A stretch of DNA of 64,000 nucleotides from an uncultured Clostridium sp. (GCA_945946655.1 CAMEWM010000001.1:130365-194364); one strand, 5' to 3'. Positions 2,569 through 24,763 are shown, numbered from the stretch's first letter. Notes: generated by a model from the letters alone, not told the origin. Numbers and translations are program-made.

Positions 2569-5500
2569 TTATAACACAAATTTCTTTATTAAAACTACGC
2601 CTGAAGTAAGTATTGCTAATACTGCCATTGTTATTGTTGTATATACTATAATCTGTCCTGTTTGTACTGATAATAATACTGGGGCATCATCAATATCGTC
2701 TTCTCCATGTTTGTTATTGTCTGGAGTTGAGTCTATGTCTGGACTATCAAAGTCATTATAGTCTTTACTTATTTCTGCCCAGTTATCCATTACTCCAAAG
2801 TTTTCACTATCATTTATCCATGTTAATATTACTTCTACTTCTGTTGTATCTCCTGATTGTAGCAATATATCTTTTGTCTGATCTGTCACTATTGTGCTCT
2901 CATCTATTTTAGTCCATAATGGGTTATCTTCTGCTACAAATTTTAATCCTTGTGGTATATAGTCTTTTACTTCTTTTGCATATCCTGCTATGTTTCCTTC
3001 ATTCTTTACTCTTATTTTGTATCTGAATTTTACTGTTACTTGATTTATTTTGCTCTTCTTTAGATCTACTTTTACTACATCCTCTGGATCATCCTCTGCT
3101 GTATGTCCTGTTTCTATTATTCTGTCTTCTCCATTTTCTGTTACTATTGCTTGTGTTACCCATTTTCTTAATGATAAATCAAAATATTGTACTTTTACCT
3201 TTTCTATGTCTTGGTCATCTTCTCCTTCATTCCATTCATCTGGGGTTGAATCTTGATCCTCTACATCATTTCCATCTTTATCAGCATCTTCAGATATCTG
3301 TGCTTTGTTTATTACTACTCTATCCGATGTATTTGGCTCTGTTACTTCAAATGCTACTTTTACATCTTTATATGATAATTCTTTTGTCTCTTTATCAAAT
3401 GCTTTGATTAAATTATCTCCTGCTGTCTTTTCTTGTTCTTTTGATAGATAATCTGTCACTATTGATACTGCTTCTTCTTCATTTTCTGTTTCTTCTCCAT
3501 TTTTATCTATCATTATCCATCTGTATTCTTTATTTGTATCATGCTCTTTTAAGAATTTCAATCCCTCTGGAATGTCATCTTTGACTTCTTGTGCATATCC
3601 ATCCATTTCCCCTTCATTGTATACTCTGATTGTATATGTTACCACATTTCCATTTGATACTAATACTGGGTCTTTTGGATGTGTATATGTTGCTGTTGTT
3701 GATGTTCCATCTACTAGTCCACTTACATCGACTTGTGGTTCTCTACTTGTTATTTTCGTACTATTTACTGCTGTAATAAACTTTCTTAAACTCAAGTCAA
3801 ATTTTACTATTGATACTTTTTCAAAGTCGTCATCATCTTCTTGACCTGGCACATATTCTTTATCCATCTCGTTATCTTTGTATCCTGGTAAGTCTTCTGG
3901 TATTTGTACATTATCTTTGTCAGAATCTCTATCTTTTACATCATTTCCTTCGCCATCAGTAAAATCAGATACATCAGCTATATTTGTTATCTTGGTTGGC
4001 ATTGGATCTGTTGATATTACTTTACATGCCACTATTACTTCTTTATATGATAATGTTGTTCCATCAAATGCAGCTATTTTATTAGCTCCAGCGGATGTTT
4101 CTTGTGCCTTTGACAAGTAATCAGTCTTTATTATCTTTGAATTTTCACTATCTAATACCCAACCATATTTTTTATTTGTATCATTATCTGATATAAATTC
4201 TAATTGGTCTGGTAAATGATCTGTTATCATTTCAGCATATCCATCGATTTGACCTTCATTATATACTCTTATTGTATATTCTACTACTGATCCAACAGAT
4301 ACTTTTACTGGTTCTTTTGAGTGATTGTATATTGCTGTTGTTCCCGTTCCATTTTTTAATGGTGTTATATCAACTTGTGGAATTCTACTTTTAATTTCTG
4401 TATCATTTACCTTTGTTATAAATTTTCTTAATGCTAAGTCAAATTCTTTTAATATTAATTTTTCAAAATCATCATCATCTTGTTGTCCTGGTACATATTC
4501 TTTACCTATTTCATTATCTTTGTATCCAGGTAAATCTTCTGGTATTTGTACATTGTTTTCTTGAGAGTCTCTATCTGTTACTGTATTTCCATTACCATCT
4601 GTGAATTTACTTATATCTGCTATGTTCGTTATCTTATTTGGCATTGGATCTGTTGACACTACTTTACATACTACTTTTACTTCTTTGTATGATAATGTTG
4701 TTCCATCAAATGCAGCTATTTTATTTGCTCCATCTGTTGACTCTTTTGCCTTTGATAAATAATCTGTTTTTATTATTTTTGAATTTCCACTATCTGCTGT
4801 CCAACCATATGTTTTATTTGTTTCATTATCTAATATAAATTCTAATTGATCTGGCAAGTGATCTGTTATCTCTTCTGCATAGCCATCAACTTCAGCTTCA
4901 TTGTATACTCTTATCGTATATTCTACTACATCCCCTATTGCTATTGATACTGGTGTTTTAGGATGCTTATATATCGCTGTTGTTTCTGTTCCGGCAGCTA
5001 ATTTGCTTATGTCTACAGTTGGTTCTCTATTTGTTATATCATCATCATTTACTTTTGTGATAAATTTCCTTAATGCTAAGTCAAATTCTTTAATCTTTAA
5101 TTTTTCAAAATCGTCATCATCTTGTTGTCCTGGTACATATTCTTTACCTATTTCATCATCTTTGTATCCAGGTAAATCTTCTGGTATTTGTACATTGTTT
5201 TCTTGAGAGTCTCTATCTGTTACTACATTTCCATTGCCATCAGTAAATTTACTTATATCTGCTATATTTGTTATCTTGGTTGGCATTGGATTTGTTGATA
5301 TTACTTTACATACTACTTTTACTTCTTTGTAATCTAAAGTTGTTCCATCAAATGCAACTATTTTATTTGCGCCGGCTGATGTCTCTTTCGCCTTTGATAA
5401 ATAATTTGTTTTTATTATTTTTGAATTTCCACTATCTACTGTCCAGCCATATGTTTTATTTGTTTCATTATCTGATATAAATTCTAATTGTTCTGGTAAG

Positions 5501-7578
5501 TGATCTGTTATCTCTTCTGCATATCCATCTATCTCAGCTTCATTATATACCCTTATTGTATATTCTACTGTATCTCCTATAGCTACAGACACTGGTATCT
5601 TAGGATGTTTATATGTTGCTGTTGTTCCATTATTATTCAATGGACTAACATCTACATTAGGTATTCTAGTTTTTATTTCTGCATCATTTACTTTTGTTAT
5701 AAACTTTCTTAGACTTAAATCAAATGATTTTAATGTTAATTTTTCAAAATCATCATCATCTTGTTGTCCTGGGATATATTCTTCTCCTCTATTTATTTCA
5801 GCATCTCTATAATTTTCTAAATCTGTACCAGTTGGTAAATTTACATTATTTGCTTGTGAATCTCTATCTACTACTTCATTTCCATTAGCGTCAGTAAATT
5901 TAGTTATATCAGCTATATTTGTTATCTTATTTGGCATTGGGTTCGTTGCAACGACTCTACATTTTATCTTAACATCTTTATATGCTAATGTATTTCCATT
6001 AAATGCTACTATCTTGTTAGATCCATCTGATGTTTCTTTTGATTTAGATAAATAAGATGTTTTTACTGTTTTTAAATCTGAACTACTTGCTAATTTCCAT
6101 CCATAATCAATATTTGTTTGATCATCAACTATAAATTCCAATTGTTCTGGTAAATGATCTGTTATTTCTTCAACATATCCATCTGCATCACCCTCATTAT
6201 ATACTCTTATTGTATATGTTACTGTATCTCCTATTGCTACTTTTACTGGCGTTTTAGGATGTTTATATATTGCTGTTGTTTCTTCTCCTGATGCTAATTT
6301 GCTTACATCTACTTTTGGTTCCCTATTTGTGATTGCTGTTCCATTAACTTCTGTTATAAATTTTCTTAAACTTAAGTCAAATGGTTTTGGCACTACTATT
6401 GATACTGTTTCTGAAAAATTATGTGGTGTTTCATCCACTATTACAACTGGTTGTTCTGTAGTTGGTGCATTTTCTACCGACCAATATTCAGCTGTTCTTG
6501 ATGTATATGATGAATTAATTGTCATTTTTATTCCAGATATATTCGAGCTTGTTGGCATCATCAAATAAAAATCTGTTCCAACTAACTCCTTTATTGTTTT
6601 ATTTGTTGATACTATGTTTCCATTTGAATCTTTTACTCCTAATGATGGAGTTATTGTTTTCCCGTCTGTATCTGTATATGTTGCTGTTAGTGTGTAGTCA
6701 ACATCTAATAATTGATTTATTTTATATGGTCCAGCTACATAGTTGCTTCCTATCTTTTGCATTGTAGCATTACTCTTTACAATTTCTATTGGAGTTGTTG
6801 TATTGTTTGGACTTACATAATTGCTATTAGCTTTAGCTTTTGTTATGTAATATTGAAATAATGCTTCAATTGCATCTTCTCTGTCCCAACCATTTGGTTC
6901 ATCATCTAATCCTTCATATTCAGGTAAATCTCCTATTGCTACATAATTGTCATCTACTTTTGGTATTGAATTTACTTTAAAATTAGTGTTTGAATAATGA
7001 TATTTATCACTAGAATCCGGATTAGTAAAATACCAAATCGCTAATTGTTGTACTACATCTATATCATCATCTGTTACTAATTCATATAAATAATCATCTG
7101 TAATCTTGCTCTTTAAGAAAGCTTCTCTGTTTGCCGTATTGTCAACACCGGCATTTGGCATTATATAAATATTATCTAATAGCCACATCAAAGAATTATA
7201 ATTACTCCCACTTGGTAATATATTTTTATATGTAGTTGGTATAGAAGATAAATCCTTCAAATTAAATTTTTGTGAATATCTACTTATCGCTGGTACTCCA
7301 CCAGTTGCCAAATCTGATGATCCAAATCCAGGTCCACCTTTTATACAATAAATTGTTTTATTTAAGTCTGCCGTCGTATCTGATGTACTATCATATTCAG
7401 CTATTTTCCACACTTTATACCCTGTTTGTTTATAACCATATCCAGAGTTACGAAGTGACACTATTCCCAAATACATTGGGCCTGCGCTTGCAGCACTTAC
7501 GCTACTTATGGTTCCAAGTGCTAATATTGTTACTATCATGATAAAAATACTTGATACTAATTTCTTTAACTTTTTCAT
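2569..7578 (-). CDS. Giant thioester-domain surface adhesin with six DUF11-like repeats
   Basis: This protein of about 1,669 residues is a surface adhesin. I chose the second ATG (7578) because AGAAGG lies 9 nt upstream of it, whereas it abuts the first ATG. A signal peptide covers about 1-31 and ends in VSAASA. The next ~250 residues carry the hallmarks of a Gram-positive thioester domain: Cys78 (TIYCIKGG) and Gln178 in VQQLAIWYF, which in known members form a Cys-Gln thioester that bonds covalently to host targets. From about residue 396 come six tandem units of about 212 residues, each opening with FDLxLRKFIT or a close variant and carrying a DUF11-type core (GDTVTYTIRVYNEG...DHLPEQLEF); the linker EYxPGQQDDDDFEKL recurs between most of them. 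The C-terminus has SVQTGQ, a hydrophobic helix and a KKFVL tail, which looks like a non-canonical sorting or anchoring signal rather than LPXTG. Confidence 0.85.
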   Translation of the reverse strand: MKKLKKLVSSIFIMIVTILALGTISSVSAASAGPMYLGIVSLRNSGYGYKQTGYKVWKIAEYDSTSDTTADLNKTIYCIKGGPGFGSSDLATGGVPAISRYSQKFNLKDLSSIPTTYKNILPSGSNYNSLMWLLDNIYIMPNAGVDNTANREAFLKSKITDDYLYELVTDDDIDVVQQLAIWYFTNPDSSDKYHYSNTNFKVNSIPKVDDNYVAIGDLPEYEGLDDEPNGWDREDAIEALFQYYITKAKANSNYVSPNNTTTPIEIVKSNATMQKIGSNYVAGPYKINQLLDVDYTLTATYTDTDGKTITPSLGVKDSNGNIVSTNKTIKELVGTDFYLMMPTSSNISGIKMTINSSYTSRTAEYWSVENAPTTEQPVVIVDETPHNFSETVSIVVPKPFDLSLRKFITEVNGTAITNREPKVDVSKLASGEETTAIYKHPKTPVKVAIGDTVTYTIRVYNEGDADGYVEEITDHLPEQLEFIVDDQTNIDYGWKLASSSDLKTVKTSYLSKSKETSDGSNKIVAFNGNTLAYKDVKIKCRVVATNPMPNKITNIADITKFTDANGNEVVDRDSQANNVNLPTGTDLENYRDAEINRGEEYIPGQQDDDDFEKLTLKSFDLSLRKFITKVNDAEIKTRIPNVDVSPLNNNGTTATYKHPKIPVSVAIGDTVEYTIRVYNEAEIDGYAEEITDHLPEQLEFISDNETNKTYGWTVDSGNSKIIKTNYLSKAKETSAGANKIVAFDGTTLDYKEVKVVCKVISTNPMPTKITNIADISKFTDGNGNVVTDRDSQENNVQIPEDLPGYKDDEIGKEYVPGQQDDDDFEKLKIKEFDLALRKFITKVNDDDITNREPTVDISKLAAGTETTAIYKHPKTPVSIAIGDVVEYTIRVYNEAEVDGYAEEITDHLPDQLEFILDNETNKTYGWTADSGNSKIIKTDYLSKAKESTDGANKIAAFDGTTLSYKEVKVVCKVVSTDPMPNKITNIADISKFTDGNGNTVTDRDSQENNVQIPEDLPGYKDNEIGKEYVPGQQDDDDFEKLILKEFDLALRKFITKVNDTEIKSRIPQVDITPLKNGTGTTAIYNHSKEPVKVSVGSVVEYTIRVYNEGQIDGYAEMITDHLPDQLEFISDNDTNKKYGWVLDSENSKIIKTDYLSKAQETSAGANKIAAFDGTTLSYKEVIVACKVISTDPMPTKITNIADVSDFTDGEGNDVKDRDSDKDNVQIPEDLPGYKDNEMDKEYVPGQEDDDDFEKVSIVKFDLSLRKFITAVNSTKITSREPQVDVSGLVDGTSTTATYTHPKDPVLVSNGNVVTYTIRVYNEGEMDGYAQEVKDDIPEGLKFLKEHDTNKEYRWIMIDKNGEETENEEEAVSIVTDYLSKEQEKTAGDNLIKAFDKETKELSYKDVKVAFEVTEPNTSDRVVINKAQISEDADKDGNDVEDQDSTPDEWNEGEDDQDIEKVKVQYFDLSLRKWVTQAIVTENGEDRIIETGHTAEDDPEDVVKVDLKKSKINQVTVKFRYKIRVKNEGNIAGYAKEVKDYIPQGLKFVAEDNPLWTKIDESTIVTDQTKDILLQSGDTTEVEVILTWINDSENFGVMDNWAEISKDYNDFDSPDIDSTPDNNKHGEDDIDDAPVLLSVQTGQIIVYTTITMAVLAILTSGVVLIKKFVL
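3187..6390 (-). repeat. Tandem ~640-bp repeats encoding DUF11-like units
   Basis: Unit starts, judged by the FDLxLRKFIT codons, fall near 6390, 5728, 5090, 4452, 3807 and 3187 on the minus strand, giving spacings of about 662, 638, 638, 645 and 620 bp. The third and fourth units (starting near 5090 and 4452) look the most alike at DNA level, so unequal crossover and assembly collapse are both possible. Five units share the LRKFIT opening; the last, LRKWVT, is the most diverged. Confidence 0.85.
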
Positions 7579-7701
7579 CTTTTCCATCCTTCTATTTACT
7601 ATAATTATAAATATTTTAATAAGATATTAAAAATAAGTCAATAGTATTTTTTCCTACATTAATAATATAGTAAAAATTGTTACATTTTAAATTCAATATT
7701 T

Positions 7702-22075: not shown

Positions 22076-24154
22076 TTAAAATCCTGTTCTGGGTAATTTT
22101 TTCTTTTCCACTATATTATATACAATAGATGAAGCAGTATCTTCGTCGCAAACTTTATATTCTTTGTCATAGCCTTCTAAAATTGTATTATTTTCTATAA
22201 GTGTATTATCTTGTAAATCATCATTTGCTTTCATAAATATATGAGGCTTTTCTAAGTTTTCAAATCCTACCTTTACATTTCCAAAACTCACTTTTATTTC
22301 TGTTATTTTTTCATTTTCTTCTAGATGTATATTAGATAAATCTATGTATTTATTCTCTGTACTACTTAAATCTTTTTTTACTACCATATATTCATTCTTT
22401 TGATTTGTTCTGTAATAAATACTATAGGTTATGTCTTGATTATATGTTCCTGTAGATATTTTAGTAATCTTGGCATAATCACTGGGCAATATATCATACC
22501 ATGTAAATTCTTTTAAGTCTGTATTTCCATTATTCTTTATTTTAAATTCATAGTCTATTTCTTCATTAGCTTTTATAATACTTTTACATTTTTTTACTAT
22601 ATCTACATTTGGATTCTCTGATTTATTGGTTACATTCAATTCTATCGTTTGATCATTTTCTGATATTTCTACGTTATATTTTTTGTTATCTAGTATGTAC
22701 CATTTTCCGCTCTCAACCTCTTGTATAGTATATTTTCCTTTCTTTAATTTACTACTTATTGCTATTCCGTTTTTATCTGTTATAACTTGCTCTACTAATT
22801 TATTATTTTCATCATATATATTAAATTTTGCTCCATCGATTGGGCTTCCTTTTTCTTCATTCAAAATATTATTTCTATCTTCACTTGTTTTTACTATCTT
22901 TATATTGCCTTTTTTATATTCATTATATATTTGTATTTTTTGTTCCTGACTATATTCTAACTCTATATTTATTGGCGTACTGTCTAATTCATACTCTTCT
23001 AATGTTGATTTTTCTATTAATATTATTTTTCCCTGTCTTAATCTAGGTATATCTATCTCACCATTTTCATCAGTTACAAATTCACCTATAAGTTCATTGT
23101 TATCTGCATATTTAGCCTCAAACGAAACTCCATGTATTGGTAGGTCTTTTTCTTTATCTAGTTTTGTCAGCTTTATACTAGATTTGTATGCATCTATATC
23201 TAATGTAATCGTAGTATTAGCACTTTCTACAGAATCAGCATATGTTATATAATCTTGATAATCATCTATGTAAGCTTCTGCATAAAATACTGGATACGTT
23301 TTTACTTTTGCATCTGTTATATTTATTTTACCTATTACATTGCTTTTTATTTCTTTACTAGGTATCGCAATTTTGAATTCTGAATTGTTCATTTTACTAG
23401 TTTCTATATTTAAATTATTTAATATCTTAGTGCCTTCTGGAAAATCACTAGCAGATACATTATAGCTGTCTACTCCTCTATTGCCTGTTACGTTATATGA
23501 TTGTATCAAGTATTCTATACCATCTATTTTTTCCAATACATTGCCTCCACTTTTATTAGCTTCAACTGTAGGTTTCGAATAATCTTCTTTACCATTTACT
23601 CCGTAGTCATAAAGTTGTTGAGATACTTCTAATACTTTGCCTCCTCTCCTTTGAACATCTTCTAATGATATATTCTCTCCTCTTCCAACTCTATGAGGTA
23701 TTTCATACTTGGCTTTTGGTGTGATTCCATCTACTAAACAGTGTATTGCTGTTTTCGTAGCATAATACAAATCATCATCATATTCTAACCCCCATGATGT
23801 ATATTGGCTTCCCATATATCCTTTATATAGTACTCTCCATAGACGTTCATCATGCAATAATTTTAAAGTAACATCATAGTTTTCTCCAGCACCGGTTCCT
23901 ATGCCTTCTTTATTAGGTTCTACGCAAAATGCCGGTTGTTTCTCTCCTGTTGTAGGGTCTATGTATACAACATACTCTACCATTTTTAGCATGTCTTTTC
24001 CTTGCACTTTTAGTAAAGAAAAACACTCATGGTCTTTTTGTAAATTTATTATCTGATTATCATTAAAACTAATAGCTAATACTGGAACTATGTTTGTTAT
24101 CAAAGTTACTAAAATTATAAAAAATATTATTGTTTTTTCTAATTTGTATTTCAT
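22076..24154 (-). CDS. Adhesin with TED-like and Cna-B/SpaA-like domains, ending in LPRTGF
   Basis: This 692-residue secreted protein has a signal peptide (about 1-28) and a thioester-domain-like region (about 30-190) with Cys77 in PAFCVEP. The place of the partner Gln (TQxA) is Lys134 in YATKTAIH, so a thioester may not form. Two Cna-B/SpaA-type prealbumin-like domains follow (about 330-415 and 416-515), each with the opening KLTKLDK or KIVKTSE that can supply the isopeptide Lys and a later Glu. A DUF11-like domain comes next (about 520-650). The chain stops right after KKKLPRTGF: the sortase motif is there, but the usual hydrophobic helix and basic tail are not. A sortase gene lies 63 bp upstream in the same operon. 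Confidence 0.85.
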   Translation of the reverse strand: MKYKLEKTIIFFIILVTLITNIVPVLAISFNDNQIINLQKDHECFSLLKVQGKDMLKMVEYVVYIDPTTGEKQPAFCVEPNKEGIGTGAGENYDVTLKLLHDERLWRVLYKGYMGSQYTSWGLEYDDDLYYATKTAIHCLVDGITPKAKYEIPHRVGRGENISLEDVQRRGGKVLEVSQQLYDYGVNGKEDYSKPTVEANKSGGNVLEKIDGIEYLIQSYNVTGNRGVDSYNVSASDFPEGTKILNNLNIETSKMNNSEFKIAIPSKEIKSNVIGKINITDAKVKTYPVFYAEAYIDDYQDYITYADSVESANTTITLDIDAYKSSIKLTKLDKEKDLPIHGVSFEAKYADNNELIGEFVTDENGEIDIPRLRQGKIILIEKSTLEEYELDSTPINIELEYSQEQKIQIYNEYKKGNIKIVKTSEDRNNILNEEKGSPIDGAKFNIYDENNKLVEQVITDKNGIAISSKLKKGKYTIQEVESGKWYILDNKKYNVEISENDQTIELNVTNKSENPNVDIVKKCKSIIKANEEIDYEFKIKNNGNTDLKEFTWYDILPSDYAKITKISTGTYNQDITYSIYYRTNQKNEYMVVKKDLSSTENKYIDLSNIHLEENEKITEIKVSFGNVKVGFENLEKPHIFMKANDDLQDNTLIENNTILEGYDKEYKVCDEDTASSIVYNIVEKKKLPRTGF

Positions 24155-24217
24155 AAATTTTAATCAACAATATATTAGAAATTTAATATATTGTAATCTC
24201 CTTTCCTTATTTTTTAT

Positions 24218-24763
24218 TTAAATTTCTTGTTGTACCGCTTGTACACATAATCTTTGGTTTACCTTATTTTTTATACATGTTATTAATGTTAGCCTATTGT
24301 CTTTTGTTTGTTTTAACATACTCCAGTCTGTTTCTAAAATTTCTTTTTTATCTTGAACAATATATTTTCTTTGTCCATATTTAGATTCATATATTATCTC
24401 ATCTCCTATTTCTAATTCATTAATTCTAGAAAAATAAGAATGTGTATTACCTCTATTATGTGCTGCTAAGCCGACATTACCATCATATTTTGAAGTTTCT
24501 TCAATATGTCCAATGTATCCTTTTAAAATTTCACTTGAACTCCCTTCTTTTATTGGGCCATTAAGATTTATCTTCTCTATTTTTAATGTTCCTAGTACAA
24601 CATCTTCTTCACTGCTATTAATGTCTTCTGTTACATTTTTATTATTTTCTATTGCTTCATTATTTTCTTCTTTTTCTAATACTTGCTTATCATATAAAAC
24701 TAATGATATCAAAGAAATAACCAAAATGAGTACAACAAATAAAACAAATAACTTTTTATTCAT
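24218..24763 (-). CDS. Sortase (class D/E-like)
   Basis: This 181-residue membrane-anchored transpeptidase has an N-terminal signal anchor (about 5-24) and a compact sortase fold. The catalytic triad is visible: His102 in LAAHNRG, Cys163 in LTLITCIKN and Arg171 in NQRLCVQ. The TLxTC motif and short length suit class D or E housekeeping-type enzymes of Clostridia. Its presumed substrate is the LPRTG-ending adhesin encoded 63 bp downstream in the same transcript. A promoter lies at 24876-24903, with a long leader. A serine/threonine-rich or pilin cluster is not present beyond this pair. Confidence 0.9.
   Translation of the reverse strand: MNKKLFVLFVVLILVISLISLVLYDKQVLEKEENNEAIENNKNVTEDINSSEEDVVLGTLKIEKINLNGPIKEGSSSEILKGYIGHIEETSKYDGNVGLAAHNRGNTHSYFSRINELEIGDEIIYESKYGQRKYIVQDKKEILETDWSMLKQTKDNRLTLITCIKNKVNQRLCVQAVQQEI

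Follow-up and report, generated by a model that had tools for sequence, protein, structure and literature searches.

An adhesin of an uncultured Clostridium sp., encoded directly downstream of a sortase gene, stops one residue after its LPxTG motif, and comparison with its homologues confirmed this tail-less end as a real feature, far beyond chance and no one-off truncation. The textbook sorting signal comprises, besides the motif, a hydrophobic helix and a basic tail that hold the protein at the membrane for the sortase. From the sequences analyzed here, we propose that, in a group of uncultured Clostridia of the gut type, a dedicated sortase probably captures the free C-terminus of the exported, tail-less adhesin, cleaves it between the Thr and the Gly of the motif, and couples the adhesin to the cell envelope.

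The adhesin–sortase locus and its host genome

The pair is located in a 64,000-nucleotide stretch of DNA (hereafter the window; GCA_945946655.1, CAMEWM010000001.1:130365-194364), in a genome of 1.33 Mb (38 contigs, 97% complete). In the minus-strand direction, the sortase gene (24763..24218) comes first, and a gap of 63 bases separates it from the adhesin gene (24154..22076). The features, counted from the first letter of the window, are the following:

22076-24763, minus strand, both genes: adhesin–sortase pair of the uncultured Clostridium sp. window
24218..24763, minus strand: sortase, 181 aa (PF04203, TIGR01076, AlphaFold, fold matches)
22076..24154, minus strand: adhesin, 692 aa, tail-less TIE-type (thioester and isopeptide-domain) surface protein (6fwv by sequence and fold)
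24074..24154, minus strand: signal peptide, residues 1-27, Sec/SPase-I-like, ending ...PVLA before ISF (sequence)
23195..24067, minus strand: class II-like thioester domain (TED), approximately residues 30-320 (PF08341 over cut-off, 6fwv matches)
23924..23926, minus strand: Cys77 (AFCVE), predicted thioester Cys (motif and family alignment)
23753..23755, minus strand: Lys134 (ATKTAIH), at the Gln position of TQxxPhiW, which is not the bond-forming Gln (alignment, PMC6194298)
23255..23257, minus strand: Gln300 (YQDYI), predicted bond-forming thioester Gln (family alignment)
22622..23182, minus strand: two SpaA/CnaB prealbumin-like stalk domains, approximately residues 325-423 and 432-511 (PF17802, 99.8 bits)
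22175..22615, minus strand: DUF11-like domain, approximately residues 514-660, then a flexible linker, approximately residues 661-687, of low pLDDT (profile, model)
22079..22102, minus strand: C-terminal sorting signal KKLPRTGF-COOH, residues 685-692 (sequence and family comparison)

The adhesin ends in VEKKKLPRTGF followed by TAA, which places LPRTG at residues 687-691 of 692. Neither a hydrophobic helix nor a positively charged tail is present, as a single residue follows the motif here and likewise in 103 homologues. Reading on beyond the stop for approximately 70 codons gave no hydrophobic segment in any frame (best 15-residue Kyte-Doolittle mean 0.76), so that the LPRTGF-stop end, its place downstream of a sortase gene, and the lack of a hydrophobic segment in the other frames, all described in the first-pass annotation, were confirmed. 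The closest solved structure is the B. anthracis TIE protein 6fwv (sequence E 3.7e-58, fold E 3.5e-26), and together with the PF17802 match it identifies a class II TED fold and CnaB domains in the adhesin.

By sequence search, four sortases were found in the window's genome and up to 11 in the genomes of its relatives. When the whole genome was scanned blind for LPxTGx-TAR (TAA and TAG stops), the adhesin end was the single match, and the reversed control gave 0. Another sortase of this genome has a canonical LPKTGVTDGYVVAILV...KKIRDYNIK protein (LPKTGVTDGYVVAILVTVCAISAIYAYKKIRDYNIK) as its neighbor. A tailed contrast also exists within the window: a large protein with DUF11 repeats, which matches TED weakly (2569-7587, minus strand), has a normal-looking tail, made of SVQTG, a hydrophobic stretch, and KK.

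Recurrence of the tail-less end

The terms order, family, and genus are used here for the groups assigned by the genome search database. When 56 related genomes were searched with the adhesin, tail-less ends were found in the majority of homologues from the genus, family, and order (LPRTGF, LPRTGY, LPKTGI, LPKTGV, LPRTGC, LPKTGW, LPKAGM, and similar). In order to remove bias, a sortase-only search of 84,980 species genomes was also carried out, which resulted in 238 relatives, and the best 80 of these were used (MAGs of uncultured Firmicutes, almost all under the label Clostridia or Clostridium). Among these best 80 of 238 loci, 69 contained a complete tail-less TED adhesin, in one (L145) the TED gene was split by a frameshift and still ended in LPKTGF, one adhesin was cut at a contig end, and nine loci were without a TED gene. 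All visible adhesin ends in this set (70/70) consist of LPxTG plus exactly one residue, and the loci mostly have one adhesin gene and no second substrate.

Normal-tailed homologues next to a lone truncated copy had been named beforehand as the outcome that would speak against the first reading of the window, and a collection of homologues had been proposed as the check; in that collection LPxTG-x-stop ends recurred across genus, family, and order, and the tail-less end proved common to the homologues. A truncation, a pseudogene, or an assembly error, which a single-gene view of one MAG contig could suggest, was rejected by this recurrence, as the end is shared by about 100 diverged proteins that stem from numerous independent assemblies, and its probability is negligible.

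The 103 distinct tail-less proteins were used to characterize the end itself. The distance from the Gly to the stop was always one residue, with a filter that permitted 0 to 6, and the last residue was M (41), F (23), Y (20), or C (10) in 94/103 proteins, compared with 6% in 1,119 background proteins from the same loci (binomial p about 1e-102 without correction for relatedness; kinship inflates the counts). Of the 103 proteins, 78 have a Lys at position -7 and 66 have one at -8, following a variable linker. The consensus end is K-K-L-P-[K/V/R]-T-G-X-COOH, with X usually M, F, Y, or C; the L, P, and G were partly demanded by the filter, and the independent evidence is the length, the last residue, and the lysines only. 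At the other end of these proteins, a hydrophobic stretch was detected in 98/103 and an A-x-A-like site after it in 85/103 (crude test).

These data also bear on whether the adhesin could be merely secreted, with the LPxTG end as a remnant or serving another purpose and the sortase acting elsewhere. The missing membrane tail would fit such a fate, as would the S. parasanguinis AbpA, which has a similar end and is partly found in supernatants (PMC4974636), and the occurrence of TasA-like genes in place of the adhesin next to some sortases of the same clade. However, across the 103 proteins no part of the variable linker is as constrained as the last eight residues (L, P, and G partly filter-required, the stop distance not), and the end is kept in 70/70 sortase-first loci with an intact adhesin end (best 80 of 238), which makes mere secretion quite improbable.

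A hidden tail, added by programmed frameshifting or stop-codon read-through, was considered as well, given that a hydrophobic segment lies within 50 codons, in some frame, in 45/106 loci. In the loci that were read closely, however, these downstream segments turned out to be where the next gene begins (MISQL..LAILI..NAYFAATEIAFISLND), their frames and distances vary, and all three stop codons occur (TAA 90, TAG 15, TGA 1). As there is no segment in any frame in the window and the segments in the loci read closely belong to the next gene's start, this explanation was rejected, and we regard it as very improbable.

Two adhesins depart from the common end: the one in locus L054 (4279-8310) has the non-standard end VLPKTRCLVN, and in the one in L043 (3783-6086) LPKTGN is followed by 30 residues of weakly hydrophobic tail (LPKTGNENGTYEVICNLIVVSSYNLCMLIKKILVK). 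Both ends are possibly decayed or transitional. Adhesin relatives with canonical tails occur in L056 and L057, and no sortase was flagged in those stretches. In some loci (L249, 5711-6418, and similar), an accessory protein of approximately 235 aa that ends in YARDYYNNGQLICTQCYII is encoded between the sortase and the adhesin, for which a family search gave no match above the cut-off.

Taxonomic distribution

A blind DNA pattern (K-L-P-x-T-G-x-TAR), with the reversed pattern as control, was used to follow the end across genomes. It matched 137/287 genomes of the order, whereas the reversed control matched about 7. Among 20 fetched loci from the order, 19 had a tail-less adhesin, and the clade sortase was present in the same stretch in 17/19. 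These loci include ends in K, R, and S, meaning that the last residue is broader than in the first set. In the genomes of one other family of the order (f5/g38, e.g., L285-L292), the last residue is mostly K or R (LPVTGR, LPVTGK, LPKTGK), in contrast to the M/F/Y/C found elsewhere.

Beyond the order, the pattern was present in 63/398 genomes of a phylum-wide sample, which is near the control (approximately 48 genomes among the matches listed), and none of the 29 fetched pattern loci from outside the order lay in an open frame longer than 99 codons. When a profile was searched across the class (391 genomes), the nearest sortases were enzymes that adjoin other genes and are without tail-less partners. 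For these samples, a system extending beyond the order was thus rejected, since the nearest sortases of the class are without tail-less partners and the phylum-wide pattern matches are noise. In other Clostridia (L233-L236, L238), sortases of approximately 270-290 aa that have a signal peptide but lack an evident membrane anchor were observed next to a protein that ends in KELLVPGSTK (transglutaminase-like in L234), and a very large surface protein is also present in most of these loci.

The sortase, its class, and its clade

In the sortase, a single N-terminal membrane helix (model residues 3-30) is joined by a disordered linker to a barrel at approximately residues 55-180; no C-terminal membrane helix was found in the sequence or in the model. 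Its catalytic residues, His102, Cys163, and Arg171, are invariant. Family membership is indicated by PF04203 (78 bits, cut-off 26.6) and TIGR01076 (69.1 bits, cut-off 39.35), and the barrel with its catalytic residues was recovered in a fold search (Z up to 21.9, best 3re9) with an AlphaFold model of mean pLDDT 86, built on a 27-sequence alignment.

The class of the enzyme is less clear-cut. The nearest PDB sequence is the C. perfringens SrtD (4d70, E 2.8e-11), but sortases of classes C, A, E, F, and D were matched by fold at similar scores, with no clear winner. The NCBIfam models were far under their cut-offs for class D (NF033746, 50.8 of 165 bits; NF058671, 62 of 140 bits), class E (NF033747, 48.4 of 160 bits), and class C (NF033745, 69.9 of 160 bits). 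An assignment to class D or E was rejected on these missed cut-offs and on fold matches tied among classes. The first-pass annotation had envisaged tail-less substrates served by a class D/E-like enzyme as dedicated partner, and of these elements the dedicated enzyme and the tail-less substrates are supported by the homologues that share the end, while the class label is not supported, the fold lying among C, A, E, and D.

A class C-like activity could have another consequence, namely that the sortase mainly polymerizes the adhesin, or joins it to another pilin, via a lysine rather than anchoring it to peptidoglycan. Stalk domains of the SpaA/CnaB kind are a typical pilin feature, the top fold matches and the top NCBIfam match of the sortase are class C, and AbpA gives a ladder together with its SrtB (PMC4974636). 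The class C model nevertheless reached 69.9 bits against a cut-off of 160, the single membrane helix is N-terminal with no C-terminal one, most loci have one adhesin gene without a second substrate, and the window's own genome has a single LPxTGx-TAR end (TAA and TAG stops). We consider polymerization unlikely, although it is the most probable of the alternatives weighed here, and anchoring to the envelope by a dedicated sortase is the reading that we retain.

Many other sortases in the same genomes adjoin proteins with ordinary tails (e.g., LPKTGITKYAYIITVIAILGSGYLALQNRKKQE), and these other sortases fall on other branches of a tree of 141 sortases, on which as few as 2 label changes account for the 80 sortases with a tail-less partner and the 25 with a tailed one. 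Several residues are private to the clade, occurring in 0% of 45 other sortases of these genomes: N156 and Y125 (100% in the clade), as well as H86, C173, G105, W147, and R104 (90-99%). R104 is a candidate carboxylate binder, replaced by Ser, Ala, Asn, or Gly in some members. As the tailed substrates often share LPKTG, the pentapeptide cannot separate the two routes, and the free C-terminus would be the obvious candidate for keeping them apart.

In at least five clade-sortase loci, TasA/SipW-like genes seemingly stand in place of the TED adhesin (judged by eye). In L143 (4237-6060), L148, L149, L093, and L094, the clade sortase is followed by a TasA-like protein (GGYTYSKY...IAPGT), with a SipW-like signal peptidase in another frame in L143; a Pfam search with the TasA-like protein of L143 gave no match. 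The clade sortase may have other roles besides the tail-less adhesin.

Thioester motifs of the adhesin

The TED of the window had initially been read as having Lys134 where the thioester Gln should be. In class II TEDs, the bond-forming residues lie within the motifs [YFL]C-Phi and Phi-Q-zeta-Phi-Phi, the Gln of TQxxPhiW is dispensable for the thioester bond, and TQxxPhiW was recorded in all TEDs predicted at that time (Miller et al.; PMC6194298). The lysine is present, but it occupies the Gln position of TQxxPhiW and not that of the bond-forming Gln, so this reading had to be revised. Both class II motifs exist in the window adhesin, with Cys77 in FCV and Gln300 in YQDYI, and TQxxPhiW is not present, as the sequence reads T-K-T-A-I-H. 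Gln occupies the column of residue 300 in all aligned Cys-bearing sequences (92/92 tail-less), whereas Glu replaces it in 8/10 tail-less members that have an aligned non-Cys residue at the Cys column. A loss of the thioester Gln is thus not supported; Cys77 and Gln300 are co-conserved across the family and are the likely thioester pair, intact in the window adhesin. A pairing of the Cys with Lys134 (Fisher p 3e-5) was dropped, because the Gln of TQxxPhiW is not bond-forming (PMC6194298) and Gln300 was found.

The Gln-to-Lys change at TQxxPhiW is shared by most of the window's family, and the Gln is retained in outgroup members and in the tail-less adhesins from other families of the order. The tail-less end hence also occurs with an ordinary TQ motif and is independent of Lys134. 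In most tail-less adhesins of the window's family, TKxxPhi[H/Y] replaces TQxxPhiW while the predicted Cys-Gln thioester is intact; a lysine beside a predicted thioester is unexpected. Second, tandem tail-less adhesins were also observed (L081, 8195-9202; L098, 5644-7125), in which the TED Cys is replaced (N, A) and the bond Gln is changed to Glu.

Proposed mechanism of anchoring

The adhesin would be exported by Sec, with its C-terminus emerging last on the flexible linker, and the membrane-anchored neighboring sortase would take the free end directly, with no motif held by a transmembrane segment. Cleavage is expected between T690 and G691, releasing a Gly-X dipeptide and leaving, as usual for sortases, an acyl-enzyme on Cys163. 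The adhesin would then be passed to an envelope amino group, most likely that of the peptide of lipid II or peptidoglycan. Before cleavage, the substrate could possibly be held by the paired lysines in front of the motif, or by delayed cleavage of the signal peptide.

What the enzyme recognizes may be the C-terminal carboxylate together with the last residue, which would separate this substrate from those with LPKTG and a transmembrane segment. The last residue is not strictly hydrophobic, since K, R, S, and N were also found and K/R is repeated in one other family, so that a specific P2' pocket would be putative. A more far-reaching version, on which we are evenly divided, is that this sortase lineage reads LPxTG-X-COOH in the manner of C-end peptide readers and anchors released, soluble proteins, with the carboxylate rather than the pentapeptide separating the routes. 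The general feasibility of using a soluble substrate is illustrated by the sortase A of S. aureus, by which LPETG-amide peptides in solution are built into the wall, with low efficiency if not concentrated or targeted (PMC4723074), and apparently not via lipid II (PMC9026250).

Comparison with known systems and implications

The pair shares with canonical class A/C/D/E systems the LPxTG motif, a His/Cys/Arg sortase with one N-terminal membrane helix, and a Sec signal peptide, but unlike the canonical signal it has one residue after the motif with no transmembrane helix or basic tail, and the sortase falls short of the NCBIfam class models. As in the B. anthracis BaTIE (6fwv; PMC6194298), a signal peptide, class II-like TED Cys/Gln motifs, CnaB stalks, and an LPxTG near the C-terminus are present, whereas the membrane tail is missing and TQxxPhiW is TKxxPhi[H/Y] in most members. 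TIE-pLS20 from the B. subtilis plasmid pLS20 is also a class II TED adhesin with no canonical membrane tail, but it has no LPxTG and needs no sortase (PMC8092201), unlike the LPxTG end and neighboring sortase described here.

The closest parallel is AbpA-SrtB of oral streptococci, where the LPKTSAVK end and the adjacent SrtB are needed for wall anchoring, as documented with GFP swaps, and a fraction of AbpA escapes into the medium (Liang et al. 2016, Sci Rep 6:30966; PMC4974636). Both systems combine an LPxT adhesin with a very short end, lacking a hydrophobic helix or charged tail, and an adjacent dedicated sortase. AbpA, however, is a small alpha/beta amylase binder of oral streptococci only and ends in LPKTS-AVK, with three residues after the Ser, whereas the adhesin described here is of the thioester/isopeptide type, ends in LPxTG plus exactly one residue, occurs across a clostridial order, and is paired with a sortase of another clade. 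Neither the KAGKALPKTSAVK end nor the streptococcal AbpA fold was found in the window adhesin, which has the KKLPRTGF end and TED, CnaB, and DUF11 domains. Among the open-access papers searched for tail-less sortase substrates, only AbpA-SrtB was comparable. The tail-less principle therefore has one experimental precedent, and what is new here is a different end, enzyme clade, and adhesin type, as well as the wide spread.

As far as is known, common pipelines for the prediction of sortase substrates demand a tail, and tail-less adhesins would consequently be missed by them. About half of the sampled genomes of this clostridial order have a tail-less substrate beside its own sortase and keep tailed substrates elsewhere, which offers a natural test of whether tail retention is needed, of what a sortase reads beyond LPxTG, and of how two LPKTG routes stay apart. 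Protein ligation, too, could profit from a sortase with a preference for short, free C-terminal tags.
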